A DNA stretch of 64,000 bases, from contig KE546974.1 of NCBI GenBank assembly GCA_000442125.1, positions 186,001 to 250,000 on the forward strand. The letters are read 5' to 3'. Shown here in pieces: positions 5,472-41,051 of the stretch. Made by a program: the position numbers and the translations under genes. The notes under the pieces are model-generated. The model was not told where the DNA came from. It was given only the letters and a program-made list of their open reading frames with translations, and ran no database searches. Each line of letters starts with the position of its first letter. Positions within the stretch are counted from its first letter, which is position 1. This stretch comes from Opeltia flavorubescens (lineage: Eukaryota; Ascomycota; Lecanoromycetes; Teloschistales; Teloschistaceae).

Positions 5472-5478
5472 AGTATCC
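5472..5478. repeat. Left target-site duplication of the giant TIR element (AGTATCC)
   Basis: AGTATCC directly abuts the first base of the left inverted repeat. The same seven bases follow the last base of the right inverted repeat at 41045-41051. Confidence 0.75.
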
Positions 5479-5631
5479 TATAGTCGCCCAGGTATACTAG
5501 ATTGCTATAACTTTTTTACTTTTTTATTTTAATAAAATAACCTTTTTAAAATCTAATTTTTATATACGCCCGGCGTTTTATACCTCTATTTTACTTTTAT
5601 TTCGTTATAATTTTATTATAATTTTATAATA
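5479..5631. repeat. Left terminal inverted repeat of the giant element
   Basis: About 153 bp match the reverse complement of 40882-41044. Of the outermost 15 bases, 14 are identical, and the next 35 or so differ only by transitions, as RIP predicts. Shared landmarks include the CATAACTTTTT-like run, the TATATAC-CCG segment and the terminal reiteration of TTATAATTT. The repeat differs in length from its partner by about 10 bp, in the TTATAATTT array. Similarity may run on weakly inward. Confidence 0.8.
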
Positions 5632-6213
5632 AAATTATAGCTATTATTTAAATATTATTTAGTATTTCTAAAATTATATTAAAGCTATTTTTACTTTTAA
5701 TTATATAATAAAATCTATTATTATTAATTTAAAGTTTATTTTAATTATATTTTTATAATATATTAAAAATAATAATATAGAATAAACTTTAAACTAAAAC
5801 GATAAATTTATTTAAAATTATTAGTAATAAAGTTTTAATTTTATTCTATTATATAGTAAATAGCTATTATATATTATATTTATCTTTTATTTATTATATA
5901 TTATACCTACTATATATACTATATTTATTTATAAGTCTAGTTAATATTAATTAATAATAAAATTATATAATAATAAACTTTTAATTTAATTATTTAAATA
6001 TTAAATTATTAAATTAAAGCTTTTAAAATAATAAATTCGATTCTTTTTATATACTTTTTTATATTTTATATAAAAAAATAATTTTTTAAAAATAACCGAG
6101 TGTATTTATACTATAAAAGATAAAAGATATAATATAATCTAATTTCTATAAAATATTATTATATATTATAATACGCGTTATATTATATAATAATAGGCTG
6201 ATTAAATATTCGA
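5632..6213. other. RIP-decayed sequence between left TIR and first LTR element
   Basis: About 580 bp of nearly pure A+T belonging to the host element. No motif, open frame or repeat could be supported. Confidence 0.5.
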
Positions 6214-6218
6214 ATAAA
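6214..6218. repeat. Target-site duplication (ATAAA), left, LTR copy A
   Basis: ATAAA immediately precedes the 5' LTR and recurs at 12653-12657 directly after the 3' LTR. Five bp is the usual duplication for Ty3/gypsy elements. Confidence 0.7.
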
Positions 6219-6642
6219 TATTACGAGCCTAGTAGGTAGCCGCTCGATATAAAATTTATACGTTTAAATAGTATTAAAAACAATTATTTACAGTAATAAT
6301 AAGATAATATTTTAATATTAATATCGATGTAGTAATAATAATAATAAGATAACGCTTTAATATAAATATTAATATAATAATAGTAATAATAAATTAATAT
6401 TATAGTAATAATATCGACGCGATAATATAAAAGGATTTTATTAAATATATAAATTTCCTTTATAATATCTTTAAAATATTATATTTAATTTATTAATTAT
6501 TTTTATTTTTTAATTAAGCTATAATATTAAAACGATTCTTTTTTATATAATTTAATAATTAACGTTTATTATATTTTAAACTTATAGACTTTTAATAAAA
6601 TTAATTTTTTAAAAACTAATTTTATTAAAATAGAATTTAATA
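6219..6642 (+). repeat. 5' LTR of copy A (424 bp)
   Basis: Matches 12229-12652, 17250-17673 and 23260-23683, all exactly 424 bp. It starts TATTAC (probably TGTTAC before RIP) and ends TTAATA (probably TTAACA). It contains an imperfect array of roughly 45-bp AT-rich units (about 6280-6435). Confidence 0.85.
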
Positions 6643-9600
6643 TTTTAAATACTTTTAAAATATTTATTTTAAATTAATATAATATTTTTATTTTAAATAT
6701 TTTTATATTAACTAGTAACTAGTCCGGAATTAAAGTTAATAAACCTAATATTTTTAATAAAAACCGATATAAATTAAACGATTAATTTACTTAATTAGAA
6801 ATATATTTTATATTTTATCTAATATAATATAATAAAAAAACCCTTTTTACCGCTTTATATTTAAAAGGAAAAGTTTAATATTAAATAAAACCTTTATTTA
6901 ATAGATATTTAAAAAAAAAAAAAAATTTTAAATATATATTTAGCGTATTTTTAGCTTTTAAAATAATAATATATAAGATTTTTAGAATATTTAATAAATA
7001 GTTTATCGCGGAATAATATATATAATATTTATAATAAATAATTTTAATATTAGACTATATTATAAAATTTTAAGAATATTTATTTACTATAAAATAGGAT
7101 AATAATATTTTTATTATTATATTTATATAGGGATTTAAAGATAATATAAAGAATAAATTTATAAAAAATAAATAAATAATTAAAATATTTAATAATATTA
7201 TAAAAATTATTATTAATTTTAATAATAAGTTATATAAATAATAATTAGAAAAACGTTTTAATAAAAATTAGTTAAATAATATAAAATATTATTTAAATTA
7301 ATTTTTAAAAAAAGGCTATTATAAAAAAAATACTAGGTCTATAAATAGCTATTATAGACCTATATTTATAGAATTAGGCTCTATTTAATAAAGTAAAGGA
7401 AGAAATTTTAGAAAAATAAAAAAAAAAAAAGAAACTAGAAGATAAATTTTTAAAATATATTATAATTATAATAAACTAGATTATTTCGCGAGAAATTATT
7501 AAAAAAATAAAATATTATTTTAATAATTTAATATTACGTTAAAAAAAAAATTTAAAAAATAAATAGAAATTAATAATAAAAATATTTATAAAAAAGATTT
7601 TAGTATTTTAAAAGTTATTTTAAACGATAACTATTTATTAATAAAAAGTAAAAAATTATTAGAATAGATTATTTAAAAAAATGGAATAAATTTTAATAAA
7701 ATAAATATTAAAAAAGCCTATTAAATATTAATAAAAAAAAAAAACCTTTATAATATATATATAGCCCGATTAAAAATTCTATATTTTTATAAATTTAAAG
7801 AAAGCTATTAATAAAAATTTAAATAATATAAAAATAATTATTATAAATAAATAGATATATAATTATATTTTTAGAATAAATAATAGGAATAGAAAACTAT
7901 AAAGATTATAGACTTATTTAATATATAAATCAAGACTAGTATTAAAAAAAAAAGATTATTTTAAAAATAATATTAAAATATATAAATACTATATTATTAA
8001 AAGAATAATATACTTATAATTAATTAAATTAGAGATTTTATTATAATAATTATTATAGAATTTATTATTTTTTAAAAAATAAATCGAGGTTTTTTTTATA
8101 ATAACTAAAAAAGTATTATATATAACTAGAAAAAAAATATAAATATATAATTTTTAATAAATATAATAGAAGATAATATTAATAAAATTAGTAAAAAACT
8201 TTTAATTAAATACTATTTTTAAAAAATAAATCGGGAAATAACTAAACTTTTTAATAAAAAAGGAATTAAAAGAATATAATATAATAATAGCCTTTAAATA
8301 ATAATATTTAACTAGTTATATATATATTTTTATTTATTTAATAATAGTAATAATAAAGGATTAATTATAAAAAGTTTAAATAATAATTAATTTAAATATA
8401 ACTAGAAATTATATATTAGAATCTTTAATAAAAAGAAAAGAATTATTTTATATTAAAAAAAAAACTTTATATTTATATATAGTAATAGACGGCGGATTAT
8501 TATTAGAAATAATAAAAGAAATATTATTATTAAAAATAATTATTAACTAGTATTAAAAGGAACTTTAATTTAATATTATATTTATAATTAATTATAATAT
8601 AATATTAAAAAGCTTTTAATTAAGGAATTATAATCTAGAAATTAATTAAAAAAAAAAAGTACTTAAATTTAAACGATATTTTTATATAAAAAATATCTAG
8701 TTTATATTTTAATAATATTTAAAAGTAAATAAAAAATTAAATATAAAATATAAATTTATAGCTTTAAATAAAAATAATTAAAAGATATTTAGTTTATTAG
8801 ATATTAATAAAAATTAATTAAATTAAAAAAATAAAATAAAAAAAAAAATCTATAAATTTTTTAAAAATTTTAAACTACCTATAGAAACTTTATTAGAAAA
8901 GATTCTAGATATATATAGAAAATAGAAATATTTATTTTAAAAAAAAGTAATTATAAAAGTATTATTTAATTATTAAATATAAAATTATAAAATTAAATTT
9001 AAATTAAATAAATAGCCTATATTTAAATCTATCTATATATTTTTAAAAAAAAAGTTAATAGTATTTTAATAATATTTAAATAAAAATAAAAAAAAAAAAT
9101 TTATTAAAAAATTTTAATTATTAATAGAATATTTAATCTTTTTTATATTAAAAAAAAATAGATTATTTTATTTATATATCGATTATAGAAAATTAAATAA
9201 AATTATAATAAAAAATTAATATTTATTACCTAATATTTTTAAATTTTAAAATCGATTTATAAAAGTATAATATTATATAAAATTTAATTTATAAAAAGTC
9301 TATAATTTAATATAAATAAAGGCGGGGAAAAAATAGAAAATAGCTTTTAAAATTTAATATAGATATTATAAGTATATAATTATATTATTTAGATTAATAA
9401 ACGCTTTAATAATATATTAAAAAATAATTAATAATATATTTAAAAAATATTTTAACTATTTTATTATTATTTATTTTAATAATATTTTAATCTATTTAAA
9501 AATATTTAAAAAATACTAATAATATATTAGCCTAATTTTCGATTATTTTAAAAATAGGAATTTATAATTTAAATTAAAAAAATATAAATTTTATAAAAAA

Positions 9601-12228
9601 AAAATAGATTTTTTAGAATTTATTATTAAAAGGAATAAAATTAAAATAGATCTAATTAAATTAAAAATAGTTAAATAATAAAAAAAACTATAAAATATTA
9701 AAAAAATTTAAAGTTTTTTTAGCTTTATAAATTATAATAGAAAATTTATTAAAAAATACTTTTATATTATAATATTATTTATTAAACTAATTAAAATATT
9801 AAATAAATAATATTAAAAAAAAAAAATAATATACTTTTAATAAATTTAAAAAAATATATTTATAAGATTTAATATATAAAATTTTTAATTTAAAAAAATT
9901 ATTTAAAATTAAAATAAATATATTAAATTTAATTATTAGTATATACTTTATATAAAAATATAATAGTAAATAGTATCTAATAATATATATATTAAAAAAA
10001 TTATTATTTATAAAATAAAATTATAATATTTATAATAAAGAATTATTAGTAATAATTATAGTATTAGAAATTTAAAAAATCTATATAAAAAAATTACTAA
10101 ACTTAATAATTTATATAAATTATAAAAATTTATTTAGTTTTACTATAATTAAATAGTTAAATTAATAATAAATATAATAATTAAAATTATTAAAATAATA
10201 TAAATTTAGGATTATTTATATATTAAAAAAAAAAAATAAAAAAATTAATATTTTAAATTAAAAAAGCGATTATATAAAAACTAAGGAAACCTTTAATTAT
10301 AATATTTTAAAAGTTAATTATAATAAATTATTATTAGAAAATAACCGTTAAATAAATATAACGCTAAAAATATTAAAAAATAATAAAGAATAGTTTTTAA
10401 TAAAAAAGAAAAAATTTAATATATTAAAAAATAAAATTAATAAATATATTAAAAAATACTATAATAAACTACTATAAAGATATTTAAATATAATAAAAAT
10501 AATATAATTTTTATAATAGAACTACTAGTTTTTTAATATAAAACCGCGTGTTAAAATATATATTAAAAAATATTTTAGTTATTAATAAAATAAATATATT
10601 ATTTATATTTATTATAGCGAAATCTAATACTAAAAATTATTAGATTTATTATAAAAAAAAGTTATTATAAATTTTATTATTAAATTATTAAAATTAAAAG
10701 ATTTAATTATAAAAGAAAAATATAATATTATATTTATTATTATAAATAGATTTATAAAATATTTTTATTTAATATTATTTAAAAAAATATATATTATAAA
10801 ATAATTAGAATTTATTATTATAAATAAATTTATCCGATATTATAAAATATTAATAATAATTATTAATAATAAAAATAAACTATTTATTTTAAATTATTAA
10901 AAAATATTAATTTTTTTATTAAATATTAAATTAAAGATATTAATAGTATTTTATTTAATAATAGATAAATAAATAAAATATATAAATTAAATATTAAAAT
11001 AATATTTATATTATTATATTAATAATATATAAAATAATTAGATATTATTATTATTAATAATATAATTTACTTTAAATATAAAAGAATTAAATATAATAAA
11101 AAAAACTTTTTTTTTTATAAATTTTTTTAAAGATTTAAATTTATTTAAAATAAAATTATTATATTAATCGGCTAAATTAATTATAAAATAAATAAAAATA
11201 ATAAAAAAAATTTATAATAATATTATAAATATATAAAAATTATTAAATATATATTAAAATAAAAAAAAAAAAATAGTATTTTTATTAAAGAAGGGGGATA
11301 AGATATATTTTTTTATAAAAAATTTAAAAATTAAAATATTAAGTAAAAAATTAGATTATATAAAAATCGGACTATTTTTTATTAAAAAAATTAAAAAACT
11401 ATAAAATTATTATTTTAATTTATTATAAAATATTAAAATATATTTAATATTTTATATATTATTATTAAAACTAGCCGACTTTTAAATATTAATCTAAAAG
11501 ATATTTAATTTTAAAATTTAAAAAAAAAATATATTTATTATTAAAAAAATATTAGAAAAATAAAATTAATAGTATTTTATTAAATAAAAAAAATACTTTA
11601 TATTAAAAAATATATAAAAATCTAAAAAATACTTTCTAAATTATTTAAAAATATTATAATAGTTTTATTAATAAATAAAACCTAGTTTAATTAAAAAAAA
11701 GTTTTAAAAAAAAAGGATTTAAAAAAAAAAACTCGTTTATTATAAAGATAAATATTATAATTTATATAATTTTAAAAATTTTTTTTTAATTTTTTTAAAT
11801 ATTTAAATTTTTTTATATTATCTAAATTTTAATTAAATATTTTTTATTTTTAATTTTTTAAAAAACGCTTTTATTATTAGAAATATTTTAATTTTATTTA
11901 TTTTAAATAAATTAATTTATTTATAACCTTTTAAACTAATTTAATTTTTATTTTTTTAAATTTTAATTTTTTTAAAGTTCTATTAATATTTAAAAAATTA
12001 ACTACTAATTTTATTAAATTATATTTTTTTTTTAAATAAATATACTCCGTATAGCTTTTTAATAATAAAAATAAATAATATTTCTTTTATAAATAAATAT
12101 AATAGATATAAAATATTATTATAATAATACCGCGAGAATAAATATATTAATATAATTTAAAATAAAAATTATTTTTATAAAAAAATATAATAAAAATTTA
12201 AAATAAATTTTAAAAAAAAAAAAAATAG

Positions 12229-12652
12229 TATTATAAACTTAATAAGTAGCTATTTAATATAAAATTTATATATTTAAATAATACTAAAAATAATTATTTA
12301 TAATAATAATAAAACGACGCTTTAATATTAATATTAATATAATAATAGTAATAATAAGATAATATTTTAATATTAGTATTAATATAATAATAATAATAAT
12401 AAATTAATATTATAATAATAATATTAACGCAGTAATATAAAAAAATTTTATTAAATATATAGATTTCTTTTATAATATTTTTAAAATATTATATTTAATT
12501 TATTAATTATTTCTATTTTCTAATTAAATTATAATATTAAAACGATTCTTTTTTATATAATTTAATAATTAACGCCCGTTATACTTTAAATTTATAAACT
12601 TTTAATAAAATTAATCTTTTAAAAACTGATTTTACCGAAATAGGACTTAATA
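12229..12652 (+). repeat. 3' LTR of copy A (424 bp)
   Basis: Same length as the 5' LTR. The differences inspected in the first 100 bases are almost all C/T or G/A, so the two LTRs were mutated independently by RIP after insertion. An A-rich purine run directly precedes it. Confidence 0.85.
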
Positions 12653-12657
12653 ATAAA
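12653..12657. repeat. Target-site duplication (ATAAA), right, LTR copy A
   Basis: Repeats 6214-6218 immediately after the 3' LTR. Confidence 0.7.
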
Positions 12658-12899: not shown

Positions 12900-14400
12900 A
12901 GAATAAGCTAAATTTAATTATAATTAACGAGCTACTATTAAAGCTATTATAGAAGCGGTTATTAACAAATTCCCTAATAAATATCCTTATAATATAGATA
13001 TAAACTTTAACTTTTTTTTTTTAAATTACTATAATAGTACTAGTAAAATCTTTATATAAAATATTATTATAATTAAATTCCGCTCGCTTTTAAAAAGTAG
13101 TAAAATTATTTTTATTATTACCTTTTTTAATATCGTATCGACTCTATTCGATAGCGGTTAGACTATTTATAATATATTTTAGATTTTATAGAACTCGATA
13201 TTTAATAGTATTTATAAGGTTAAAAAAGGTATAATAAGAACGGAACTCTTTTATAAGGCCGATTTAATTTTTTAGAATAAATCGACGATATAGCGGAAAT
13301 AGAATTTTATAGTTATTAGCCGAACTTTTTATAATTTAATAGGAATTAAATTCAATATTCTATTTATAGAAAAGATAGTCTATTTTTATAATAACTTCCG
13401 TTAATATTTACCCGTATAACCTGGTATAGACCCGGATTTAATAATATAAATATATTTATAAAATCTTCCTTTCTAGAAAAATATTTATATTCTATAGTTA
13501 ATAATTAATATATAGCTTCGTAACCTTTTATTAAATATATAAGGCCGCTTTAAAATAAAGGAGTTTATTTAAAAAGTACTAAAAATAGATAACGCTAGTA
13601 CCTTTATTATAAATAAACCTGGTATTAAAAAAGCGCTATAGAAATATAGGTTAATTTTAGAAAATACTCTAAATAATTTAATTAAAGCTATTTATTTAAA
13701 TTTTACNNATTTTAATAATAATAANNATTATTTAAAAAAGCGAGCTATTTTTATTATAGTAAATATCGATATATTAAGAATTAATAATAGCTGCGCGGAT
13801 CTAGTAAAAAATAAATTATATTTTAAATATAATTAAAATTAAATATTAAAAAAAGCTTTAAAAGAAAAATTCGGTTTTAAATATTTCTATAATTTTAATA
13901 AAGTCTTTTTTTTATTATATATTCTTCGCTTTAAAATTAATATATTTATTATATTTATTTATTTATTAATTTAGGCCGTAAAAAGATATAATATTAAAAA
14001 AAAATATATACTTTAATTTTTTTCGTTAGCTACTATAACTTTACTCGATCCTAGCTAAATAATATAAATTTAAAATTCTAGAATTAGGAGCTAAAAACGG
14101 GTATAGAATTTGAAATATTTATAAAAATAAATTATATATAGCTAATCCTTTAGTAAAAGGGTTAAACCCCGATTTATATATTTTTTTTTAATTAAATCGC
14201 TAGCTAAAAAAAGGTAAAAGTATAGATAAAATAATTATCTATTTATTTTTTAATAATAGTACTCTATCTTTTTTTTAAAGGAAGAAGAAAGGCTTTATAT
14301 ATTAAATAATACTTAAAAAATTAAATTATACGACTATTAATAAAGATATATTAGCTATAATAGAATATATAAAAGTAATTTTAATCTATACCGCGCTAGA
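12900..14400 (+). pseudogene. Degraded PIF1/Helitron-type helicase domain
   Basis: One + strand reading frame keeps a recognisable PIF1-superfamily helicase skeleton through RIP damage. It has an entry segment ending in A-x-x-x-A-I near 12.94 kb, a Walker A-like run (N-S-T-S-K, from G-x-G-T-G-K) at about 13033-13050, and a segment at about 13120-13180 resembling the IAS-LL-GG-T-H-F motif of eukaryotic PIF1 helicases. A Walker B-like region follows at about 13275-13290, then a GDFRQ-LPV-like region near 13.40 kb and an N-x-x-L-R segment near 13.52 kb. In life such a protein unwinds DNA as a 5'-3' helicase. It lies just right of LTR copy A. It could be a component of the giant element or part of a Helitron inserted in it; no Rep (HUH) domain was found. 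Four ambiguous bases (13707-13708, 13725-13726) lie inside it. It cannot be functional. Confidence 0.55.
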
Positions 14401-16080
14401 TTTAAATTAAATTATAATAATATTATTATTAGTACTCTACTATAGCTTTAAATTAAGTTATAATATTCGAAGCCGCTATTCTATATATATAAAAAAAATC
14501 CAACCGGTTAAAAAAAAATATTTAAAAAGCTTAAACCTTTTATTTATATACGCTATAATATATTTAATTTCCGTTTTATAAAGGTAGGTTTATTATAAAT
14601 AATAGATAGTAGAAATAAAAACTAAGCGTGTTAAATAAAAAATACTCGCTTTTATATTAAAAATTACTCGAAAAACTAAGTTATTAAATTATATAGCTAT
14701 ATTAATAAAATAATATTAGCTAGAATATAATTTATAGATATAGATCCGCGTTATATCTATTATTTTTACTTATACTATTATTATTAATTATATCCCGTAG
14801 CAGCTTTAAATTAAATTATATTTTTTATAATAGCTATATTATTAAATATATAATTCTAGTTCGAGTAATTAATATATAATAATAATAATTAAAATAGTAT
14901 AATAACCTTTATAATTAAATAGTAAAATATACGTATACTAATATATAAAGCCTAAATTCGATTTTTAGTAAATATTATCGTATTAAATATTATTCGAAGT
15001 AATTTAAGTATATTTAATATTAATAATAATAATATTATCTTTTTTTTACTTTATTCCTTCCTCTAAAATATTATAGTAAAAAGCGACTATAAAAACTTAA
15101 AAAATAGTAAATTAAAGCTAGTATACGCGATTATAATAGTTTAAAAAGTAGTAATTTAAAGCTAGTATATTTATAAATATAAATATCGAATAATAATAAT
15201 ACTTTTATAAAGTAGTTAATATATTTTACTAATATATAAATAAAAGGTTTAAACGCTACTATATAAAGTATAATATAAAATAGAATAGATAAAAGAAATA
15301 TATTAAAACGCTATAGAGCTTTATATTATATAGCTAAAAATAAATAATAAATAGTTAGAAATAGAGTAGTAAATAATAGTAGGTAAATTATTAAATAAAA
15401 CCTAAAAACTTTATAAAAGGATAGAAAAACTTCGGATACTAGGCCTAAATAAAAAGAAATTTATTTTTTATAAGTAATCTAATTAGCTTAAACCTTATTC
15501 TAATTACTAGTTCTAGAAATTCTCTATTTATATTTAGATAAGAAAAGGTATAATAATAAAAAAAAATATTAAAAAGAAGTTTATTATTAAATAATATTAA
15601 AATATTTACTCGTTTTTATATAAATTATAGTTTAACTAATATTTAGCTAAAATATATAATTTAAAATACGCTTAAATACTTAAATTTAATATTACGAAGT
15701 TTATAAATAATATTATTTATTTAAAATATAGTTTATAAAATAATATAGCCGTATATTATAAAATTTTAAAAAAAATTTAAAATTTTTATAATTCGTTTAA
15801 TACGGGTATTTTTATAAAATCTTATATATATTAATTTAAAACGCGTTTTTATAGTAGAATTCTATATTAAATATAAATAATATTAGTCTATAATTTAATA
15901 AAATTATATAGCTAATTATATATTCTAGAATAAATTAAAAATTATTTAATTTTATTTAATATTAATATATAAATAGTTTTAAAAATAAAAATTTAAAAAT
16001 ATAATTATAGAATTTAATAGTTTTTAATAATATTTTTTTTTTATTATATTTTTTCTTCTTTTAATTTTTTTATTTTTATA
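14401..16080. other. RIP-decayed host-element sequence, unassigned
   Basis: Slightly less AT-extreme than the LTR copies, with scattered GC-containing words that suggest former coding sequence. I could not recognise a family on either strand. Confidence 0.4.
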
Positions 16081-16149
16081 TTTAAAACTATTTATAAGTT
16101 ATTTTTAAATTAATTTCAAGCCGTTTTTTTATTTAATTATAAAATTATC

Positions 16150-17000
16150 TAATCCTTTTTAATATAATTTATTAGACTTAAAATTAATTCTATAAATATT
16201 ATAAACTCTACTTTTACGGTTTTTAATACTACCTTTAGTTTATTTACTAAAAATATTCGTTTATAAACGCCTGCTAAAAAAGCTCGATTTCTAAAATCGG
16301 TTAATAAATTTAATAATATAATTACCGAGGTTAGTAATACTAATACTAATATTAAAGCGAAGAGAAAAAGCGATAAAAAAGAAAAATTTTAAAAATATAT
16401 ATTATTTAATCCTTTCTACTCTAATTAAATAATAATAGGGGCCTAATTATATAATATTTTATATTATCGAAACTAGAGTTTAAGTTTATAAAAAGGAAGC
16501 TAATTATTAGTCGAAAATATAAATATTACGCGCCGTATAAATATAAATAAAAGAATAATAAAGGGTTAAATAAAATATATAAACGAAGATAATAAATAAA
16601 TAACGAGCTACTACTATAGAAGATAATAGGCAAATAATAGTAAATAAAATAGTAAAAAAAGCTCTAATTACCGCGGAACGGAATACGGAACTTATCGTTT
16701 TTTAAAATAACAAGATTACTACCTATTATAAAAGAGAAAAAAAAGAATACCGCTATCGCGAAAAAAAAGAAGAAGCTCGTATAATAATAGAGGAAGATAA
16801 AAAGGAGAAAATTTTAAAAATAGAAAGAGAATATTATATAGAAATTCGCTAGTTTATATATAAAAATATCGAAACGGAGTTTTTTTTTATTAGCTAATCT
16901 ATTTTAAACGAAAATAAAATTCTAGCTAACTATAAATTAATAATCGAGGCTAAAAACCGCGAAAATAAAATATTATATTAATAGTAGAATAAATTTTATT
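16150..17000 (+). pseudogene. Degraded coding relic with charged coiled-coil segment, unknown function
   Basis: On the + strand, a stretch near 16255-16390 still reads as a low-complexity basic protein (TPAKKARFLKSVNKFNN and onward). Another at about 16715-16855 reads as a K/E/R-rich helix (KREKKEYRYREKKEEAR and onward), typical of a coiled coil. Long readable runs with amino-acid-like composition are rare in this block, so a former gene of the giant element is likely. No family was recognised. It is inactive and adjoins the left end of LTR copy B. Confidence 0.35.
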
Positions 17001-17244
17001 TATTTAATATCAGTTAGTTTTTAAAGTTAAATTCGGGCTAAACTATAAATTATAATAAATAAATAAGATTAATAAAAAAAAATAAAGTTGTAATTAATTT
17101 AATATTAATTTATTTAAAAAAAAACTTACTAAAATATTAAAAAATTAAAGATTCGATAATAATTATAAACTTATAGTTTAAATTAGATTGCAGTACTCTA
17201 GATTTACACGCTAATATATTAATCTCGATTTTATATTTAACTAG

Positions 17245-17249
17245 AATAG
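17245..17249. repeat. Target-site duplication (AATAG), left, LTR copy B
   Basis: AATAG precedes the 5' LTR and recurs at 23684-23688 after the 3' LTR. Confidence 0.72.
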
Positions 17250-17673
17250 TATTACAAGCCTAATAAGCAGCCGCTCGGTATAAAATCTATATATTTAGGT
17301 AGTATTAGGAACGATTATCTATAATAATAATAAGATAATAGTTTAATATTAATATCGATATAGTAATAACAATAATAAGATAACGTTTTAATATTAGTAT
17401 CGATGTAGTAATAATAATAATAAATTAATATTATAGTAATAGTATTAACGCGGCGATATAAAAGAATTTTATTAAATATATAAATCTTTTTTATAATATC
17501 TTTAAAATATTATATTTAATTTATTAATTATTTTTACTTTTTAATTAAACTATAATATTAAAACGATCCTTTTTTATATAATTTAGTAATTAACGCCTAT
17601 TATATTTTAAACTTATAGATTTCTAATAAAATTAATCTTTTAAAAACTAATTCTATTAAAATAGGACTTAATA
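17250..17673 (+). repeat. 5' LTR of copy B (424 bp)
   Basis: Starts TATTACAAGCC and ends GGACTTAATA. It keeps more G and C in its first 100 bases than most of the other LTRs and so is one of the least mutated LTRs. Confidence 0.85.
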
Positions 17674-20600
17674 TTTTAAATACTTTTAAAATATCTATTT
17701 TAAATTAATATAATACTTCTACTTTAAATATTTTTATACTAACTAATAACTAATTCGGAATTAAAGTTAATAAACCTAATATTTTTAATAAAAATCGATA
17801 TAAATTAAATAATTAGTTTATTTAATTAAAAATATATTTTATATTTTATTTAATATAATATAATAAAAAGATCCTTTTCGCCGCTTTATATTTCAAAAAA
17901 AGAATTTAATATTAAATAAAACCTTTATTTAATAAATATTTAAAAAAAAAAAAAATTTTAAATATATATTTAACGTATTTTTAGTTTTTAAAATAATAAT
18001 ATATAAAATTTTTAGAATATTTAATAAATAATCTACTATAAAATAATATATATAATATTTATAATAAATAACTTTAGTATTAAATTATACTATAAAATTT
18101 TAAAAATATTTATCTATTATAAAATAGAACGATAATACTTTTATTACTATATTTATATAGGGATTTAAAAATAATATAAAGGATAAATTTATAAAAAATA
18201 AATAAATAATTAAAATATTTAATAATATTATAAAAATCGCTATTAATTTTAATAATAAATTATATAAATAATAATTAGAGAAATATTTTAATAGAAATCG
18301 ATTAAATAATATAGAATACTATTTAAATTAATTTTTAAAGAAAGGTTATTATAGAAATAATACTAGATTTATAAATAGCTACTATAAATTTATATTTATA
18401 GAATTAGGCTCTATTTAATAAAGTAAAAGAAAAAATTTTAAAAAAATAAAAAAAAAAAAAAAAATTAAAAGATAAATTTTTAAAATATACTATAATTACA
18501 GTAAATTAAACTATTTTATAAAAAATTATTAAAGAAATAAAATACTATTTTAATAATTTAANGCTATATTAAAAAAAAAATTTAAAAAATAAATAGAAAT
18601 TAATAATAAAAATATTTATAAAAAAGATTTTAATATTTTAAAAGCTATTTTAAATAATAATTATTTATTAATAAAAAATAAAAAATTATTAAAATAGACT
18701 ATTTAAAAAAATAAAATAAATTTTAATAAAATAAATATTAAAAAAATTTATTAAATATTAATAGAAAAGGAAGATTTTTATAATATATATATAGCTTAAT
18801 TAAAAATTCTATATTTTTATAAATCTAAAGAAAACTATTAATAAAGATTCGAGTAATATAAAAATAATTATTATAAATAAATAAATATATAATTATATTT
18901 TTAAAATAAATAATAGAAATAGAAAATTATAAAGATTATAAATTTATTTAATATATAAATCGGAACTAATATTAAAAAAAAAAAAAATTATTTTAAAAAT
19001 AATATTAAAATATATAAACGTTATATTATTAAAAAAATAATATATTTATAATTAATTAAATTAGAGATTTTATTATAATAATTATTATAGAATTTATTAT
19101 TTTTTAAAAAATAAATTAGGTTTTTTTTTATAATAATTAAAAAAGTATTATATATAATTAAAAAAAAAATATAAATATATAACTTTTAATAAATAAAATA
19201 AAAGATAGTATTAATAAAATTAATAAGGAATTTTTAATTAAATATTATTTTTAAAAAATAAATTAAAAAATTATTAAACTTTTTAATAAAAAAGAAATTA
19301 AAAAAATATAATATAATAATAGCTTTTAAATAATAATATTTAACTAGTTATATATATACTTTTATTTATTTAGTAATAGTAATAATAAAAAATAGATTAT
19401 AAAAAGTTTAAATAATAATTAATTTAGGTATAATTAGAAATTATATATTAAAATTTTTAATAAAAAAAAAAAGGTTACTTTATATTAAAAAAAAAACTTT
19501 ATATTTATATATAATAATAAATAGCGGATTATAATTAAAAATAATAAAAAAAATATTATTATTAAAAATAACTATTAACTAATATTAAAAGGAATTTTAA
19601 TTTAATATTATATTTATAATTAATTATAATATAATATTAAAAAACTTTTAATTAAAAAATTATAATCTAAAAATTAATTAGAAAAAAAGAATATTTAAAT
19701 TTAAGCGATATTTTTATATAAAAAATATCTAGTTTATATTTTAGTAATATTTAAAAATAGATAAAAAGTTAAATATAAAACACGAATTTATAACTTCGAA
19801 TAAAAATAATTAAAAGATATTCGATTTATTAAATACTAATAAAAATTAATTAGATTAAAAAGATAAAATAAAAGAAAAAATTTATATATTTTTTAAAAAT
19901 TTTAAACTATTTATAGGAACTTTATTAAAAAAAATTTTAGGTATATATAAAAAATAAAAGTATTTATTTTAAAAAAAGGTAATTATAAAAATACTATCTA
20001 ACTATTAAATATAAAATTATAAAATTAAATTTAAATTAGGTAAATAGTTTATATTTAAACCTATCTATACGCTTTTAAAAAAAAAACTAATAGTACTTTA
20101 ATAATATCTAAATAAAAATAAAAAAAAAAAATTTATTAAAAAATTTTAATTATTAATAAAATATTTAATTTTTTATATATTAAAAAAGGATAAATTATTT
20201 TATTTATATATTAATTATAAAAAACTAAATAAAATTATAATAAAAAACCGATATTTATTATTTAATATCTTCGAGTTTTAAAATTAATTTATAAAAGTAT
20301 AATACTATATAAAACTTAATTTATAAAAAATCTATAATCTAATATAGATAAAAGCGGGAGAAAAATAAAAAATAATTTTTAAAATTTAATATAAATATTA
20401 TAAATATATAATTATACTATTTAAGTTAATAAATATTCTAGTAATATATTAAAAAATAGTTAATAATATATTTAAAAAATATTTCAATTATTTTATTATT
20501 ATTTATTTTAATAATATTTTAATTTATTTAAAAATATTTAAAAAATATTAATAATATATTAATCTAGTTTTTAATTATTTTAAAAATAAAAATCTATAAT

Positions 20601-26600: not shown

Positions 26601-28529
26601 AAAAAGCGGGCTAAAATATAATAAATAAACGCGAGGTTATTCCGAATAAAAAAATATACTAGAGTTGTTTAATTATTTAAATAAGTATTTAGGATTTATT
26701 TATTTATATAAAAGATATAAAATTAAATATAATTAATAAAAAGGAATTTTTATTTTCTATTATAACTATAGTTATAGTTTATACGGTTAAGCCGATATAA
26801 TATATATATTTTTTTATTTTTAATTATACCTTTAAAAAACTAATTTATCCTAGTTTAATATTATTTAATATTTTATATTAAATCTTTCTGTATTTATTTA
26901 AAAGAATATATAAAAATATAAAATAAACGCGTTAAAAAATAGTAGTATATAATAAATATCGAATATAAAAACGAAAATAATAATATATCTAATCTATAAT
27001 AAAAAATTATACTTAATATTAATAAATATTTTAATTATATCCGTTTTATTTTTTTATAAATCTCGTAAAAAATTTAACTAGCGAGAAATATTATTCTTTT
27101 TCTTTTTTTAATATTAGGCTCTTTTAATATTCCTATTAGTAACTTTCGATTTATTCCTCGTTTTAATATAGAATCTATAACCTTAATAGTTTTTATATAA
27201 TAGGATCCCCTATAAAATAAATTTAAAGGCGCTAGTCTATTATTTTACTTTTTAAAATCTATCGCTATAATTTTTTTTAAACTCTTTAATATTTATAAAT
27301 AAAATTTTATACTAAATAAAACGTTAGAAGGAAAGAATATTAAAGGTTTTTATTTTTTTAAAAATATTATTCTCTATTTTAAAAGAAGTATTAATATTTA
27401 AAATTAAGATATAAAATAAATTAAAAAATTAAAAATATATATTAAAGGTTTAAAAGAATAATTAATAGATTTTTAATTTATATATTAATATAAAATTTTT
27501 AGTTTAAATAATTTTTATAATACTATAATTACTTATTTTTAAAAAAATATAATAATTTTTATTTAATATTAGATTAGAATTTTTAAATAAATCTATAAAC
27601 TATAATAATTATATAGCGAAATTAAGGTGAAAACGCGGCTAAGTTATAATATATCCCGCTAGAGCGAATAATAAAAAAAGCTAGTTTTTAGTACTAATAT
27701 TATAAAAGTATCCGATTTTTATAATTTTATTTTAATACGCTTTTAATTTATTTTTATTTTATTTTATTATTATAATAAGCTCCCGCGTTTACTATAATTA
27801 ATATTTTTAAAAAATTTTTAACTTTATAAATAAATAAAGCTATTATAATCGTTTTAATAGTACTATTTATTATTAAAAAACCGCGATATTAAAAACGTAT
27901 ATATAATATATTAGGCGGTATTATAGTATAAAGTAATATCGAGTTATATATTTTTTTATTTATAATTTTTTTTTTATTAATTAAACGAGCTTTAAAAATT
28001 TTTTTAAAGATTTATATTAACGTTCGTTAAATTTTAAATAAAGTATATCGTACTAATAATATAAATAAAAATATTTTTAATAAAACGAAAACTCTAGTTT
28101 AATATTTTAATATTTAAATAACTAATATTTTTAATAATATAACCGAGGCTTAATATATAATATAAATAGTATTTAATATTATAGCGGAATTTTAATAGTT
28201 AATTTAAATAGTTTTCGAAATATTATAATAACTTAATAAATAAAAATCCGATCTAGTATAATAGTAAAATTAAATTCGTTTTTTAAAATATAATTATTTT
28301 AATTATAAAATTATATTAAAATATAAAATCTCGATTTTAAATAAAATTTATATATTTATTTAAATATTATTATTATTAGAAACGGCGAGACCTCTATTTC
28401 TATCTAATATTAAATCTAACTCGTATTCTAATAAAATATCGGATTATACTTAAAGTATATTTTAAACCTACCCCTATTAAAATATTTTTATAATTTAAAC
28501 TAATAATAATCCTTTAATATAAATTAATA

Positions 28530-29400
28530 TTATATTTTAGCTTCTATATTATTATCGCAGCCACGATATTCGATTACTTAAATATTAGCTCCTCGAGTAG
28601 TATTTAATATAAAGATCTTCCTTTTAATTTAATAAAAAATAGAAGGTTAACCCGAAGCCTATTATTATATTAATATAAAAAAAATAGTTAATAAAATATT
28701 ATTATTAATCTATTTTACTACTATTTATATAATTAATTAGGAGTTTATTAATATAAAAAAGCGCGGAGAATTTTGGAATAATATCCGTAGAAAACGGTAA
28801 AAAAAAATAAATAAAAATATTATTCCTTTTTTAAAATCTATAAAAGCGTTTAAAATATATAAAAATAATAAAGCTATTAAATTTAAAGATAATACTATTT
28901 TTTATTATTATATCGCTATTAATAAAATATTATTACCGATTATTTCGGTTAAATTAAAATATTTAAAGTTTTTATTTTTTTTTTATTAATATTATAGATA
29001 GTATTAGTTTTATTATTAATACGCTCTTTTTTAAATAATTCGTCTCCCTCGCTATTAATAATAAATACTCGCTTTTTTAGTAAAACTAGGGTATTTATAT
29101 ATTATTTAGCTATTAAACTAATCTAAATCGTATAAATAAAAACCGTTTATTAATAAATAAATAGGAATTTAAATTTATTAGATACTTTTAAATTAATAAA
29201 CCTTTTTATATATATTTAAAACCGCTTTAATAGATATAAATTTAAATAAAAAATATAAATAGGGAATAAATTATAGTATAGGTCGATAGTATAATAAATT
29301 TACAGGAATTAATAATTAGAATATTTATTAAAGGCTAGAAAAAACTATATTAAAAAATATAAATATATTATTTATACTACTTTTATTTTTATTACTAAAA
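28530..29400. repeat. Diverged direct repeat, unit 1 (approximate)
   Basis: Collinear similarity to about 33580-34280. The clearest match is the AATACTATTTTTTATTATTAT run followed by a CGCTAT-type word (near 28.9 and 33.77 kb). Other collinear matches flank it, including the AACCGC/GGTTTAATA-type segment at about 29.21 and 34.11 kb. Boundaries are rough, and AT-richness inflates apparent similarity. Confidence 0.35.
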
Positions 29401-32400
29401 AGCTTACTAGTTTTATTATTCTCGGGCCGGTTATATATATAGCGCCGTATTTATAAGTTATAATAGCTTTTAAAACTATAGAAAAATATATTTTTATTCT
29501 AGCTCTACTTATTATAAAAAAATAAAAAGGAATATTTAAATAGTATATAATAGAAATACTAGAAGGGAATTTATTATAAAATATTATTATAGATTTATTA
29601 AACGAATATATATTAATTAAAGCGCTAAAAGGTATTATTATTATATTAATATAGTAACCTCGTTTAATATAAGCTTAATATATATTTTATATTCTTTTTT
29701 AAATTTAAAAAAAATTATATTATATTAAATTAAATATTAGATTAAAATTAAATATTTATTTAATTTACCGCCCGGTATATATATATAGTATAATATTTAA
29801 ATTATTTTCCTTTATAATATTTTAAAGTAATTATAAAATTTAAGTATTAATTTTAATTTATTTTTAATAGAGATAATAATATATAAAAATAATAATTTTA
29901 TAAAAATTTTTAAATTTATAATAACTAGTAGTCTTTTTACGCTTATAATAAGTTTTTATTAAATTTTCAATATATTTTCGCTATAAATTTATTAATTTCT
30001 TAAAAAAATTCGATTATATATATATCTATATTAAATATATTAACTATATAATTTATTTATTTAAAAAAAATATAAAAATTTTTAAAACTATTTTTAATAA
30101 AATATATATACTAGTAAATTAAATTTAAAATATTTAATTAATATTTTTTTAAATCTTTTATTAATTATATATATTTTATATAAATATCGCTTTTATTATT
30201 ATATATTTTATACGGTATTAATATTCTCCTTCGCCTTTAACCCTCTATTTTTAATATTTAAAATCTAGTAATTAGTAATAATTTATATACCTACTATTTA
30301 TTCCGAATTTAATATAATATTTATATTAAATTTTAAAATCTGATATAAATTTCTATTTTTATTACTTTAAAGTCCTTAATATATAAAAAAAATTCGTTAG
30401 TTAAAACTTCCTCTAGTTATTAACGGTATAATATTAAAAGCGTTTTATAGTATTTATAAATACCTAGTTTTTTAACTAGTTCCGATTTTTACCGGTATAA
30501 TATTTTTTCTAGCCTCCTTTAAATAACTATAATTTCTTTTTTTTAAATAATACTTTTCCGTTAATATTTACTCGGCTTTTATTTATATTTTTACTTATTT
30601 TTAAAACTAATAATAGCTTCTTTTAATTACTTTAGTTTCTTCTCTTTAAATAATACTCCTCTATTAATATTTATTTGGTTTTTATCTACGTTTTTATTTA
30701 TTTTCGGGGTTAGTAGTAACTTTTTAAAATTATTTTATAATTTTAATTTTAGCTTTAATTATTATTAAAAAATTTAAATAAACGATTTTATTTTATTATA
30801 ATACCGTTCTATATTAATTATATATAAAAAAGACCTTTATAAAGAAACCCTTACTTATTTTTACTAGAAAAGATTTTTTTTAAATAAAGTATTAGAATTT
30901 ATTCTTTAATTTATTTATAGCGGGATATAATTTAATAAAACTTTAAATATAATATTATAAATAAAGCTTTAAATTCTTTTAAAAAAATACCTCCTATTAT
31001 ATAAATAAATTCGAATTTTTATAATAAAAAACTAGTTTAACTACTAGTCTTAATATAATAATTATAATATATTTTATAAAAATCTAAAAAAAATTTTTTA
31101 TTATAATTCTATAATTTTTTTTATTTAATTTTTTTTTTATCTATTTAATTTGATATTATTAATATTATTTTTATTATATTATATCTGGTATTATATTTTA
31201 ATAAATATTAAAAATTTATTATTAATTATATCTGAAACGGTATAAAAATAAATAATATCCGATAATTTTTTAATAATCGATTTTCTATCTATATTTTTAA
31301 ATATACTTTTAGCCGGCGTTTAAAGTAATAAAATTTATATAAATTTCTAAAAATTAAAAAATCGGATAATCTAATATAATATATAGTATTTTTCTATTTT
31401 CGTATTTATTTTAATAATAAAGTAATATTTTATATTCTATATAAAAAAAGCTGGCCGATATCCGGTAGAACTTTTATATAATATCGTCTAAATTTAAGTT
31501 TATTTTAAAAGATAATTTTAATAAAAAAATGAAATATAATAAACTTACGAATATTTAAATTATTATAGAAAGAATTTAAAAAAGGTATTATATAAAATTA
31601 TAAAAAAAATAAATTATTTAATTACTTTTATATAATAAATTATTAAATATAAAAGTATAGCTTTTTAATAATAAGTATTTTATTTTTATCGCTAACTCGT
31701 TATAAAAATAGGTTCTATTAATAATATCGGCTTTTTATATTGGAATATATAGAGTAGTACGGTAAAAGAGTTTAATAAAAGAAAGAAGAATTCGTTTTAT
31801 CTAGGCCTAATATTATATAGTCTTTTAATAGGTATAATAAGTTTAAAAATTATAAAATTAAAATCTATACTACCGTTAATAAATACTTTTATTATTTATT
31901 ATAGATTTATATTAAATATACGGTTTATATTTAAATTAGTATTTTTTAATAGTACTTTAATTATATTTAATTTTTAGAATTTATCTTTTATATAATTCGG
32001 ACGGACTATAAAAGCGAAACCGGGTTAATAATATAAATATATTATTAATTATACTAATAATAAATTCTAGTATATAATTTTTAGACTATTATAAATACGG
32101 TACTAGTACTATAAATATAAAAGTGGAAAAGTAGTAGAATAAACTTATAGATATCTATAAATTCTATTAATAGATATAATATATTAATCTATCTAGTTAT
32201 AATATAGCGCTTATATTATATAAATCTATTTCTAATTTTTTTAAAAAAAAAGTCTTTTTAATAATAATCGTTTAAAAAATTAAATTATTCTTTTAACTAT
32301 TTATTTATATATTATTCGCTCTGAAATTAATAAATTTATAAAATTATAGAATATATATTAAATAAAATTATAAAAATACTATTTAAATATAATATCTAGA

Positions 32401-33579
32401 TATTTATAAAAATTATATTATTATAATATAAAGTTTATTAAAAACTATACTTATTTATTTTTTAATAATAAATTTAAAAAATTTTAATAAAATATATAAA
32501 AATTTAATAAATCTATTTTTTTAAATATTAAAAGACTATTTAAAATTAATTTTTAGATATAAACGATTACTTTTTTTAATTAATATTAGATTAATATATT
32601 AACTAGTTTATAATATTAGACTTTAATCCTATATAGCTACTATTAATTCTAAAATAAAAATATATAATATTTTATAAAAACTATTATCTCGTTTTTCGGG
32701 ATATTATCTATAAGTATATATATAATAGCTAGTTATTTTTATTTAAGCTTTTAAATAAACCAAAAGGCGTATAAAATTAATAGCTATAAGATTTAGTATA
32801 ATTCTATATTTTATAATCGGAATTAATATTATAAAATAATTAATTAATATTAAATATTATAACTTTATATATTATATATATTTAATTATAACTTTTTTTT
32901 TAATTATAAAGTTTAGAAATAGAATAGTAGCGGGATTAATAGCGGGTAGATAAAATAGGTACTATTTAGTAAATAGGGACCTAGAGAATTAATAAAATCT
33001 TTTTAAATTTTAAAATATTAATAAAGCTAGATAAAATAATAGAATAATTATAGTAGTTTTTTTTTTATTATTTAGCTATAAATCTATTTTAAATATTTTT
33101 AATTTATAAAAATTTTAAAAAGTCGATTAAATTAAATATATTATAAATAATATTTATTATTCTATAAAAAAAAATTTTTTATAGTTTTATAGCGGGTTTT
33201 AAATATAATATTCGAAATTATTTCGAAAATTTATTAAAGATCTATCTAATATATAGCGAAATACTAATAATTATAGATTTTATCTCGATTAATATTTAAT
33301 TAAAGTAATATATAATTATATTATCGATTTATTATTAATTATTTTCTATAGTTTAATAATTATAATACTTTAATACGATTTTATTTTAGTTTATTTTTAT
33401 TTTATTTTTTTTTAGTTATAAATATATATAATAGACTAGGGTTAAATATTATCTAAAAAAGTTTATATTTAAATTATAGTAGAAATATTTAAGTTTTTTT
33501 TTAGCGAGATATAAAATAAAAAAAAAGCTATTATTTATTAATAAATTAGCTATTATATATACTATTATTGTATTAATAA

Positions 33580-34280
33580 AGCCTGGTTCTTTAACCGCTA
33601 GCTTTTTAAGTAGCGCGAAAATTATCTTTTTAATATAGAATAGAGGATTTATTTAAAGCCCGTTATTATATAATTATATTTAAACTATTATTAAAAAAAC
33701 TAGCTAGAAATTTATTAATATAAAATAGTAATATTTTAAAATAATAAAACTATTAAATATAAATATAATACTATTTTTTATTATTATACCGCTATAAATA
33801 AAATCGCTAATAAAATATTTCTACCGACTTTTTACTTTAAACCAGAACTTTATAGCTTTTTAAATCTTAACTTTTTTATTATTATAATTATCGATTTTTA
33901 AAGCTTTAGCTATACGGCTAGCACGCTTTTTTTTAAGCGATTACTCTTTATTATATTTAATAATAGTTACTCCTTTTTTTAATAAAAAAATAAAATTTTT
34001 ATATTCTCTAGTAATTTAAATAAAGCTAATAGGAAAGATTTTTTAATAAATAGATAAAAATTTAAATCGCTAGAGATTTTAAAGTTAAAAAAAGTTTTAA
34101 TATATTAATAAAACCGGTTTAATAAATTTAAGTTAAATTAAAAAATATAAATAAGTATTAAATTATAATATAAGTTAATAGAATAATAGATTTAGAAAAA
34201 TAAATAGTTAAAATATATATTAAAAATTAAAAGGAGCTATATTAAATAGTTTTAATTTAATATATATATATAATTATATA
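33580..34280. repeat. Diverged direct repeat, unit 2 (approximate)
   Basis: Partner of the unit at about 28.53-29.40 kb, roughly 4.9 kb downstream in the same orientation. It may reflect two paralogous genes within the giant element. Confidence 0.35.
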
Positions 34281-34665
34281 GTAGTAATAGCTATAAAAGC
34301 GAATTACTATAGTAAACGGTATATTAAAATTAGTATAGCTAGTATAATTAAAATAAATGGAATTAATAAATTTTTCGTATACGCTAAAATAAGCTAAACG
34401 TTTAAATATCTATTAGTAATCTAACTTTATTTATTAAACTATTTACTTTTTTATAATTATCTATTCTAATAATAATTATAAATTTAAATAATCTCGTTAT
34501 TTATAAATTATATACGATATTTATTCTTTACTACTCGCTATTTACTTATATAAATAATAGTAATTTTATTAATAATAGTAGTACTAATAGAATTTTAAAT
34601 AAAAAAAAAATATTTATATTAATTTAAATACTATTTAAATTTTTTTAAATAATATTTAGTATAAA

Positions 34666-34737
34666 TACTTCTATTAAAATTCGAACCTGAATATTTCAGG
34701 TTTTTATATAAATATCTTATTACTAGACTATAAAAGT
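34666..34737 (-). tRNA. tRNA-like relic, probably non-functional
   Basis: The minus strand folds like a 72-nt tRNA. The 7-bp acceptor stem, ACTTTTA with TAGAAGT, pairs at every position with one G-T. An A-box-like TAGTCTAGTAATAAGAT gives a 4-bp D stem. The B box is GGTTCGAAT in a T arm whose 5' strand TCAGG faces TTTAA, exactly what RIP would make of CCTGA. Segment spacing is canonical, with 23 nt between the D and T stems. The anticodon stem is poor, with two mismatches RIP cannot explain; the would-be anticodon reads AAA, and an 8-bp hairpin competes with the T arm. It could be a captured tRNA, a tRNA-derived SINE head, or coincidence. Confidence 0.33.
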
Positions 34738-37900: not shown

Positions 37901-40881
37901 TTTATAGGTTATTAAATAGAAAAAAAAAGGACTGCCTATTTATATATAATCCGACTTTTATATATTTTTTTACTTATTATTAAAACCGTTAAAATCCTAC
38001 GCGATTATAAATTTAAATTATACTAGTTTTTAAATTAGGCTAAATAAGTTTTTAATAATAAAGTTAACCTTAATATAACTATTAAATATAATATTAGCTT
38101 TTTAATTATTTATATTATTAATATTATTTATAATACTAGTAATTTTAATATCTTTTTTATAAAAATTATCGATTTTTATTATAGGAATAACTATAATACC
38201 GCTAAAATTTTAAGAATAAAAAAATATTTAAAGGTTTTAAAAGCCGAAAAAATAAAAAACCGCTATTATTTTAACTAAATTAATAATCTAAAGTTTAATT
38301 TTCTAAATAGAGCTAAACGCGACGGTTTTTTTTTATATAATAGTTTAAAGTATAAATTATTTAGTAAATTTAATTATAAATATCTACTAGTACTTTATTA
38401 TTTAACTATTTTTTTTTTATTCTTTTATATAACTAGTGGAATAGTTTATTCCTTTTTTTTATATATAATCCTTTACTTCTACTCTTTAATAATTTTTAGT
38501 ATAAAATAGCCGCTAGTATAAATAAATTTAAAATATTATTAATATTTTTTAAACGATTAATAAAATAAATTCGGGATTTTTATTTTTTAAAAACTATTAA
38601 AGGTAAACGGTACTATTATATTATAAATTAAATAAAATATTATATAATTATCTACAAACTTTAAATATTTTATAAAACCGAAATTAGAAAATTCTCGCTT
38701 TTAATTTATAGGTCTTAGAGTTTTTAAAAAATTATATTTATAAAATACTCGCGGTAGGTATTTTAATCTAGAAGATTTTATTAAATCTAAATTTAAATAG
38801 GATTATTCTATTATATAATTATAGACTAGACTAATAAGTTTAATATATAGTAATTTATTTTTTAATACTATTTTAATACTATTATTATTATTTTAAAAGC
38901 AATTCCGCTTTATAATTAAAAGTCTGCCGCTATTATTAAATTCTTTTATAGTCTATTTTTATATACGTTTATATTTTAGTATTTTCTTTAAATTTCTAAA
39001 CTTAAATTATTATATTTTATCTAAAAAATAAAAGCCGGGTCTTTAATTTAAATCTATTAATAAAATATTTTAAAAGCTGGTTTTTTTTATTTAGTCTTTC
39101 CTTTCTTAAAATCCTCCTTTTAATCTATATAATAATTATTATTATTTATTAATAGCTCCAGCTACGGTTATTAATTAAAACCCGCTATTTATTTTAAATT
39201 TTTTATTATTTTTTACTACCGCGAATATTAAATTAATAAACGATTAAAAGTTTTTAATAAATATTAATTTATAAACTAAATATAATATTTAAAACTTTAA
39301 TTAATATAATAATAACCCGGTTAATTTTATAAAATATAGCGATCTTAAGTTTTAAAATTTATATCTAGCGGTAAAAAATCGGTATTTAATCTACTTTAAT
39401 TAAAAACTATTAAAAATATAAAATATAAAAATAAAGTACTTTATATATAAAAAAAAGAATATAACTATAAAAGGTTTTTAAATTAGCGGTAATTTTTTTT
39501 ATATATATATTAAAAACTTTTAATAATAATAATATTATATAATAATATAATTATAAAATATTATATAATTTTTAAACTTTATTTTAACTATTTTTTATAA
39601 TTATAATATTATTTCGCTACTTTTTTATTATAAATTCGCTATATTTTTCTAGTTCCGTTATAAAAATTCGACTATATATATATTTATATATATAATATTT
39701 ATTATAAATTTAAAATTATTTTAAAAGTTTTTAATTATTTTTAAAACTTTTATTAAAAAAAAGTTTATTTTAATATTTTAATTTAAATATTTAAATATTT
39801 ATAATAATTCTATTAATATTATTTATAGGTGCTATTTTTTATATTATATATTTTACTTAATATAAGTTCCTTTAAAATATAAAAAATCTATATTTTTTTT
39901 TATTTTTAATCCTCTATCTTTTATTTAAATTACCTCGCCGGCGGTAATAATATATAAATTTTTTACTTATTCTAAATTATATAAAGTATATTAATAAATT
40001 TATTAGAAATAATAATATAAAAGTTTACCGCTTTAATTATTTAAAAAACTTTAATATATATCTAGTTATAAATATATATCTCGCGAGTTTATATATTTAA
40101 CTTAATATATTTTAATAACCGAATCTATAAATTATTAATTATTATAGCGAATATAATTTAAATAAAAAATTAAATATATTTAAATAAATAAAAGATTTTA
40201 TTTTTTTTTTTTTTAAAGCTTTATTATTTTTTATATTTAATAGTATATATAATATAAAAATTTCTATATTAAAATACTTATTATTAATAGTTCTAGCTTT
40301 TAATATTTATTAATTAATATATATAAATTTTACGCGAGTATTATTATATATAATTAAGATACTAATATTTTTTAAAAATAGTCTAATATATATTAATTAA
40401 AATTAAATTAGAATATAATAATTTTATAAATATTATATTTAATACGGATTTAATTAATTTATTTTAATAAATAAATTAAATAAATATAAAAATAAATTCT
40501 AAATTTTTTTTAATTATATAATTTAGAGATATAAATTTTAAATTTAATTTTTTAAATTATAGTTATTTATTTTTAATATTTTTTTATTAATTAAGTTTTT
40601 TTTATATATATAAAATAAATTTATAGATAAAATTTAAATAAAATTTTATAAATATAAGCTTAATTAAAAAATAAATATAAAAAATAAATTATAATAAAAG
40701 TTAATAAAGCTATAAATTAATACTAGTATATATTTATATAATATAATAAAATTTAAAAAGTATTATATTAAATAATTTTTAAAATTTTATAAATATTAAA
40801 TAAATAAAATTTTAAAATATAAAAGGGTATCGCGGTATATTTAATTATAAAAGAGCTTTATAAATTTAATATAATAAAAAC
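34973..40881. other. RIP-decayed right part of the giant element, unassigned
   Basis: About 5.9 kb without open frames. Long T-rich runs occur near 36.74-36.86 kb, and a segment near 39.56-40.02 kb resembles 29.90-30.34 kb. No gene family is legible. Confidence 0.4.
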
Positions 40882-41044
40882 TATTATAAAATTATAATAA
40901 AATTATAACGAAATTATAGCGGAATAAAAATAAAATATAGGTATAAAGTATCGGGTATATATAGAAGTTAAATTTTCAAAATTTGTTTTAGCGAAATGGA
41001 AAAGTGAAAAAGTTATGGTAATCTGGCACACCTGGGCGACCATA
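40882..41044. repeat. Right terminal inverted repeat of the giant element
   Basis: Reverse complement of the left repeat. Its outer 80 or so bases are much less RIP-mutated than the left repeat and keep words such as CTGGCACACCTGGGCGACCATA-like G/C bases that the left end has largely lost. It is therefore the better guide to the ancestral terminus. Confidence 0.8.
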
Positions 41045-41051
41045 AGTATCC
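41045..41051. repeat. Right target-site duplication of the giant TIR element (AGTATCC)
   Basis: Identical to 5472-5478, directly after the last base of the right inverted repeat. An eighth base is ambiguous because both the element end and the flank could supply an A. Confidence 0.75.

Follow-up and report, generated by a model that had tools for sequence, protein, structure and literature searches.

The AT-rich block of about 35.6 kb that lies between MED15 and an alginate-lyase-like gene in the window, the 64,000-nucleotide stretch of DNA analysed here, is most probably a very large, long-dead and probably helicase-carrying variant of IS3EU. It has exact inverted ends abutted by a 7-bp duplication, is saturated with repeat-induced point mutation (RIP), holds two later Gypsy-type insertions and carries pieces of a PIF1-type helicase on opposite strands. 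The reading that we favour, with some confidence and with real room for doubt, is that of a single cut-and-paste DNA transposon of the IS3EU type with a PIF1 helicase of its own, wrecked by RIP, later entered by Gypsy elements and rearranged by an internal inversion. The superfamily itself is known; what is most probably new here is the PIF1-type helicase, in two pieces, inside an IS3EU-type element.

A RIP-saturated block with exact ends

The host is a filamentous ascomycete. On the left of the block, MED15 (211-3069) is probably continued by the open frame that follows it and runs to 4598, and on the right stands the alginate-lyase-like gene (42093-42740). Further flanking genes encode Sec39, an SNF2-type protein with DUF3535 (MOT1-like), a protein kinase and EFR3; residues 7-1924 of the 1925 in the MOT1-like protein are matched by PDB chains titled 'helicase-like protein', which we take to be fungal MOT1 structures. 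Searches for tRNAs and for Rfam families gave no match. Within the block, where G+C is about 5 to 20 percent, five segments have a C/(C+T) before A of 0.003 to 0.011, where the two flanks have 0.70 and 0.62; before G the ratio is kept at 0.85 to 0.93. The near disappearance of C before A together with the retention of C before G shows that RIP is saturated, and it is so nearly throughout the block; the exception is the right edge, whose outermost 84 bases have a C/(C+T) before A of 0.455. From 5479 to 40960, C before A is almost wholly lost and the leftover G+C is mostly CpG, since RIP spares C before G.

The edges of the block are terminal inverted repeats (TIRs). The left TIR (5479-5645, + strand) is RIP-mutated up to its tip, and the right one (40879-41044, - strand; its inner limit is taken from the aligned length) is little mutated in its outermost about 80 bases. 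The outermost 15 bases read TATAGTCGCCCAGGT on the left and TATGGTCGCCCAGGT on the right (reverse complement), 14 of them identical, as a sequence-only reading of this DNA had noted. In a RIP-tolerant alignment the repeats extend to about 166 bp (5479-5645 against about 41044-40879), with 129 identical positions, 29 transitions and 8 transversions in 166 columns and one 1-base gap. The outer 154-155 bases contain 26 transitions; in 18 of them it is the left end that carries the RIP product (T in place of C, A in place of G), and in 8 the right end. The right repeat is the less mutated, as the sequence-only reading also had it. In plain local alignment the two ends score 314 against each other, compared with a mean of 153 (sd 34, maximum 241) for random pairs inside the block (400 draws, pairs less than 900 bases apart being skipped). 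Moreover, in a purine/pyrimidine code, which is unaffected by RIP, no inverted pair of the block scores higher than two segments of the TIRs (79 and 61); a non-TIR pair follows at 58, and the reversed-sequence control reaches at most 44. A RIP-degenerate search allowing up to 9 mismatches found no occurrence of the outermost 45 TIR bases in the window beyond the two ends.

The 7-mer AGTATCC abuts both ends, at 5472-5478 and 41045-41051, just as the sequence-only reading had it, and the chance of exactly abutting 7-mers is 7e-5, or 0.002 when a shift of up to 2 bases is allowed at each end. When the right boundary is shifted in by one base, the match grows to 8 bases, AAGTATCC, and the symmetry of the TIRs is lost. 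A single insertion with TIRs and a 7-bp duplication is thereby supported, in which older insertions, by now unrecognisable, may also be contained. Literature searches with the TIR letters found no paper, and the TIR pattern had no match in the genome contig collection; its one match in the viral contig collection, in a GC-rich stretch of which 501 bases were inspected, showed no similarity past the pattern, and it was taken as chance rather than as a relative.

Two later retrotransposons

Two Gypsy-type LTR elements lie inside the block in the same orientation (+ strand), at 6219-12651 and 17250-23682. Each has 423-bp LTRs and a 5-bp duplication, ATAAA (6214-6218 and 12652-12656) for element 1 and AATAG (17245-17249 and 23683-23687) for element 2. 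Pfam RNase H domains are found in element 2 with E=5.6e-4 (RT_RNaseH_2) and 0.0088, both below the curated cut-offs, and element 1 is assigned to the Gypsy type because it is 90 percent identical to element 2. Subtracting the retrotransposons leaves 35,566 - 2 x 6,433 - 2 x 5 = 22,690 bp, in agreement with the earlier figure of about 22.7 kb. Between the two elements there are 22 transversions over 6,437 columns, and one more column holds an N. Since the LTR pairs within the elements show 1 and 2 transversions in 423 columns, against 8 in 166 for the TIRs, the Gypsy-type elements would be younger than the outer element, provided that the outer TIRs were identical at insertion.

IS3EU-type termini and a probable transposase core

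Fungal IS3EU families, as characterised in a 2025 survey, have TAYGG..CCRTA ends, TIRs over 30 bp and 6-bp duplications (PMC12730594), and a 2023 paper gives complete IS3EU families as always having TA..TA ends and usually 6-bp duplications (PMC10045372). The little-mutated right end of the block reads TATGG..CCATA, which fits the TAYGG..CCRTA of the survey (PMC12730594), and the left end, TATAG, is one RIP-type change from TATGG. The TIRs, at about 166 bp, are well above 30 bp; symmetric ends give a duplication of 7 bp and asymmetric ends one of 8, rather than 6, a deviation but not an exclusion, since the 2023 source says 'usually'. The sequence-only reading had seen the block as a giant TIR element of no nameable superfamily. 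Its first half stands, as one insertion with TIRs, a 7-bp duplication and two later retrotransposons, but its second half does not, since TATGG..CCATA fits IS3EU and the block probably contains the degraded core of an IS3EU-type transposase.

This wrecked DDE transposase core would be of the rva_4 type, rva_4 being the transposase domain of IS3EU. The assignment, less certain than that of the helicase described below, places it at 31803-32373 on the + strand in three frames (31803-32054, 32090-32170 and 32230-32373). It comes from a RIP-aware protein search, in which the element, less its retrotransposons, was compared in all six frames with hand-written family consensuses, rather than curated profiles, under a substitution model of RIP on host codon usage. 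The two rva_4 consensuses, likewise hand-written, were fixed before the site in the block was located and were validated as rva_4 by Pfam (E 8e-30 to 1.5e-37). In the first version of the search, with a null over whole frames, the IS3EU score of 55.7 lay between the null mean (53.1) and the null maximum (66.7), and its best place was elsewhere. The second version modelled RIP more strongly and took its nulls locally, from 216 stretches and 12 shuffles for each of the 21 queries; in it both consensuses peak at one place, with z 8.08 (null maximum 3.15) and 5.02 (4.55). Four non-IS3EU queries among the 21 also rose above their own null maxima, namely a RecQ-like helicase at 6.38 (5.5), which exceeds the weaker of the two IS3EU queries, the hAT C-terminus at 4.28 (3.62), LINE reverse transcriptase at 4.04 (3.95) and DDE_1 at 3.27 (3.16).

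On shorter stretches, the N-terminal piece of the core reached z 7.9 (null maximum 6.51) and the two C-terminal pieces 5.13 and 4.83, under a null maximum of 5.29. The three pieces are collinear and in the correct order, and the positions of the DDE triad are held by N, D and E in the wrecked reading. For the third piece rva_4 tops the Pfam list (E=0.051; 13.7 bits, under the cut-off of 26), and the first two pieces match no Pfam family. The rva_4 assignment is accepted, with less certainty than PIF1, on the agreement between the two consensuses, the three collinear pieces and Pfam. Patterns from the rva_4 alignment matched 63 viral contig and 37 genome contig stretches, none of which was confirmed as a relative.

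A PIF1-type helicase in two pieces

A PIF1-type helicase remnant, recognised by its conserved motifs, is present in the block. Motifs I to IV lie near the left end (12913-13960, + strand), with only about 1 kb of element sequence between that end and the helicase, and were found by both Pfam PF05970 and the RIP-aware segment search. PF05970 matches the + strand at 12.9-13.6 kb with E=7.6e-11 when stops are set to X and 9.5e-16 when they are read through, and the PIF1 query gives z 29.9 in the first RIP-aware version and 32.9 in the second. The segments that cover these motifs score z 18.8, 15.0 and 12.7 over 12913-13785, extended to 13960 in a separate segment search. Four N bases (13707-13708 and 13725-13726) stand in the remnant and perhaps mark a weak spot of the assembly.

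A wrecked C-terminal part lies on the - strand at 40008-40351, with motif V at 40351-40250 (z 6.95, null maximum 6.63) and motif VI at 40196-40008 (z 8.44, null maximum 6.05), in the correct order, 54 bases apart and in different frames. In 12.7-17.2 kb, motifs V-VI reach at most z 2.61. From the - strand piece to the right end there are 693 bases, too short for the missing N-terminal part, here about 1 kb. The simplest reading, which would explain the two pieces best, is that one PIF1 gene was split when about 26 kb of the element were inverted; the C-terminal pieces on which this leans are weak, and no copy with the uninverted order was seen. The main alternative to the inversion would be two part copies of PIF1 in opposite orientation. 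Literature searches for IS3EU with PIF1 and for an rva_4-like integrase with PIF1 gave no title on such an element among the matches listed; the one listed paper that names both IS3EU and PIF1 does so in unrelated mentions (PMC12411881). As far as these searches go, an IS3EU-type element with PIF1 is unreported.

Other internal content

Four old internal duplications score well above reversed controls and contain 10 to 18 percent transversions: 28485-29377 with 33343-34269 (direct), 29860-30385 with 39516-40060, 34116-34365 with 40642-40894, and 14905-15051 with 34737-34597 (inverted). The comparison of 29226-29358 with 40644-40776 scored 59.3, below the control maximum of 60.8. Two of the old duplications adjoin the transposase core, and the duplications are perhaps paralogous genes. 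The first pair was rejected as the LTRs of a third retrotransposon, since its 849 columns contain 112 transversions and its alignment has many gaps. The inverted pair 33002-33145 and 36018-35877 was rejected as the TIRs of a nested element; it scores below the best reversed-sequence control in one comparison and, in the purine/pyrimidine code, reaches 36 against a null of 44. In addition, a 103-bp unit stands in tandem, in about two copies, at 30517-30737, and the copies differ nearly only by transitions. The stretch 16407-17006 (+ strand) has a coding-like phase rich in K, E and R, perhaps of a coiled-coil protein, and matched no protein family; the RecQ-like helicase peak (z 6.38, null maximum 5.5) lies at about 15058-16258 on the + strand.

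Most of the 22.7 kb is without a recognised gene. Ordinary six-frame Pfam scans with X at stops, which took in four frames of 5,472-6,300, only the + strand of Gypsy-type element 2 and none of element 1, returned PIF1, the RNase H domains of the Gypsy type and a single UBA match at chance level (E=0.23). Absence in these scans weighs little, because a full-length Gypsy element showed RNase H domains only. With stops read as Q, W or R, nothing under E=0.17 appeared in Pfam outside PIF1 and the transposase (14.4-15.8 and 39.2-41.0 kb left out). A RIP-tuned codon-phase gene finder, which has little power, placed 9 of 143 windows, including three in PIF1, above the 95 percent level of its null, and period-3 and stop-density scans also have little power in the block.

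Proposed history and rival explanations

According to the favoured reading, an IS3EU-type transposase would have bound the TATGG..CCATA ends and put the element downstream of MED15 through cuts 7 bp apart. The PIF1 helicase would be the element's own gene and may have aided the copying or repair of so long an insert. RIP would afterwards have destroyed the element, the two Gypsy elements would then have inserted, and the C-terminal part of the helicase would have come to the right end through an inversion of some 26 kb whose two breakpoints fall at a single position in PIF1.

The outer element may instead be an IS3EU-type transposon no larger than usual, at about 8 kb comparable to Styx of Zymoseptoria, with most of the 22.7 kb, PIF1 pieces included, being older insertions obscured by RIP. 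The lack of a recognised gene in most of the 22.7 kb, the old internal duplications and the 7,927 bp reported for Styx (PMC10853768) all lend themselves to this account, which we nevertheless regard as unlikely: PIF1 pieces lie near both ends, which a single nested insertion does not explain, and the only nested TIR pair above control in the purine/pyrimidine code, 14905-15010 with 34632-34737, is far apart and without a terminal look. Moreover, a query for the Rep (HUH) domain that would accompany the PIF1 helicase in a Helitron gave z 3.7, under its null maximum of 4.23. It is improbable that the element belongs to another TIR superfamily (MULE, hAT7 or Kyakuja) with the rva_4 core as a passenger or false match. 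Long TIRs are usual in MULEs, and the hAT C-terminus query is slightly above its null maximum (4.28 against 3.62), but the block's ends are those of IS3EU, and queries for MULE (2.94 against a null maximum of 3.83) and KDZ (3.9 against 4.09) fell short, as did the middle part of hAT (3.26 against 3.62), each of these queries being a single hand-written consensus. The survey credits hAT7 and Kyakuja families with 7-bp duplications, and gives Kyakuja CA..TG ends without TIRs (PMC12730594).

Least credible of all is that the block is not one insertion but separate small end elements, a decayed Starship, or debris with edges matching by chance. The score of the ends (314 against a maximum of 241), the chance of the duplication (7e-5) and the confinement of the end sequences to the two ends within the window speak against it, even though AT-rich blocks of ascomycetes often contain nested repeats. 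Starships are described as large and able to decay under RIP (PMC12506042), but a query for their DUF3435 captain reached at best z 2.44 against a null maximum of 3.73 (one hand-written consensus).

With the single-element reading, a block that would otherwise be masked as AT-rich debris becomes a defined element, and its exact ends make intact relatives searchable. If the helicase is the element's own, IS3EU-type size would extend up to about three times that of Styx, the type would join the few helicase-bearing DDE transposons, and the copying of very long DNA transposons would become testable. It is conceivable, though we would not presume it, that giant IS3EU elements of at least 20 kb form a whole lineage in ascomycetes, with their own PIF1-type helicase and 7-bp duplications, in which takeover of the helicase allowed long elements to be copied or repaired in transposition. 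In practical terms, the RIP-aware protein search recovers gene remnants that ordinary profile scans of the block missed.

Comparison with known systems

AcademH elements are Academ DDE transposons that carry a helicase, and they resemble the present element in that combination. In contrast, Academ duplications are given as 9 or 10 bp (PMC10045372). Starships are likewise large mobile elements of ascomycetes (PMC12506042), and Icarus, a putative Starship, is described with TIRs and DDE endonuclease genes (PMC9594970); however, the defining feature of Starships is a DUF3435 tyrosine recombinase (PMC12506042), of which the block gives no signal. Styx, too, comes from an ascomycete, with an IS3EU-related DDE transposase, TIRs and RIP-decayed copies, although its description gives 7,927 bp, 36-bp TIRs, 6-bp duplications and four reading frames, with no helicase named among them (PMC10853768). 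Rust IS3EU families are reported to carry an alpha-kinase and a TET/JBP gene (PMC12730594, PMC10045372), and an alpha-kinase query had no match in the element. With fungal IS3EU families as described in these sources, the element shares TA..TA ends (here TATGG..CCATA) and TIRs over 30 bp (PMC12730594, PMC10045372). Its putative rva_4-type DDE core would be a further likeness. It differs from them in its 7-bp rather than 6-bp duplication, its TIRs of about 166 bp, its 22.7 kb and its PIF1-type helicase.
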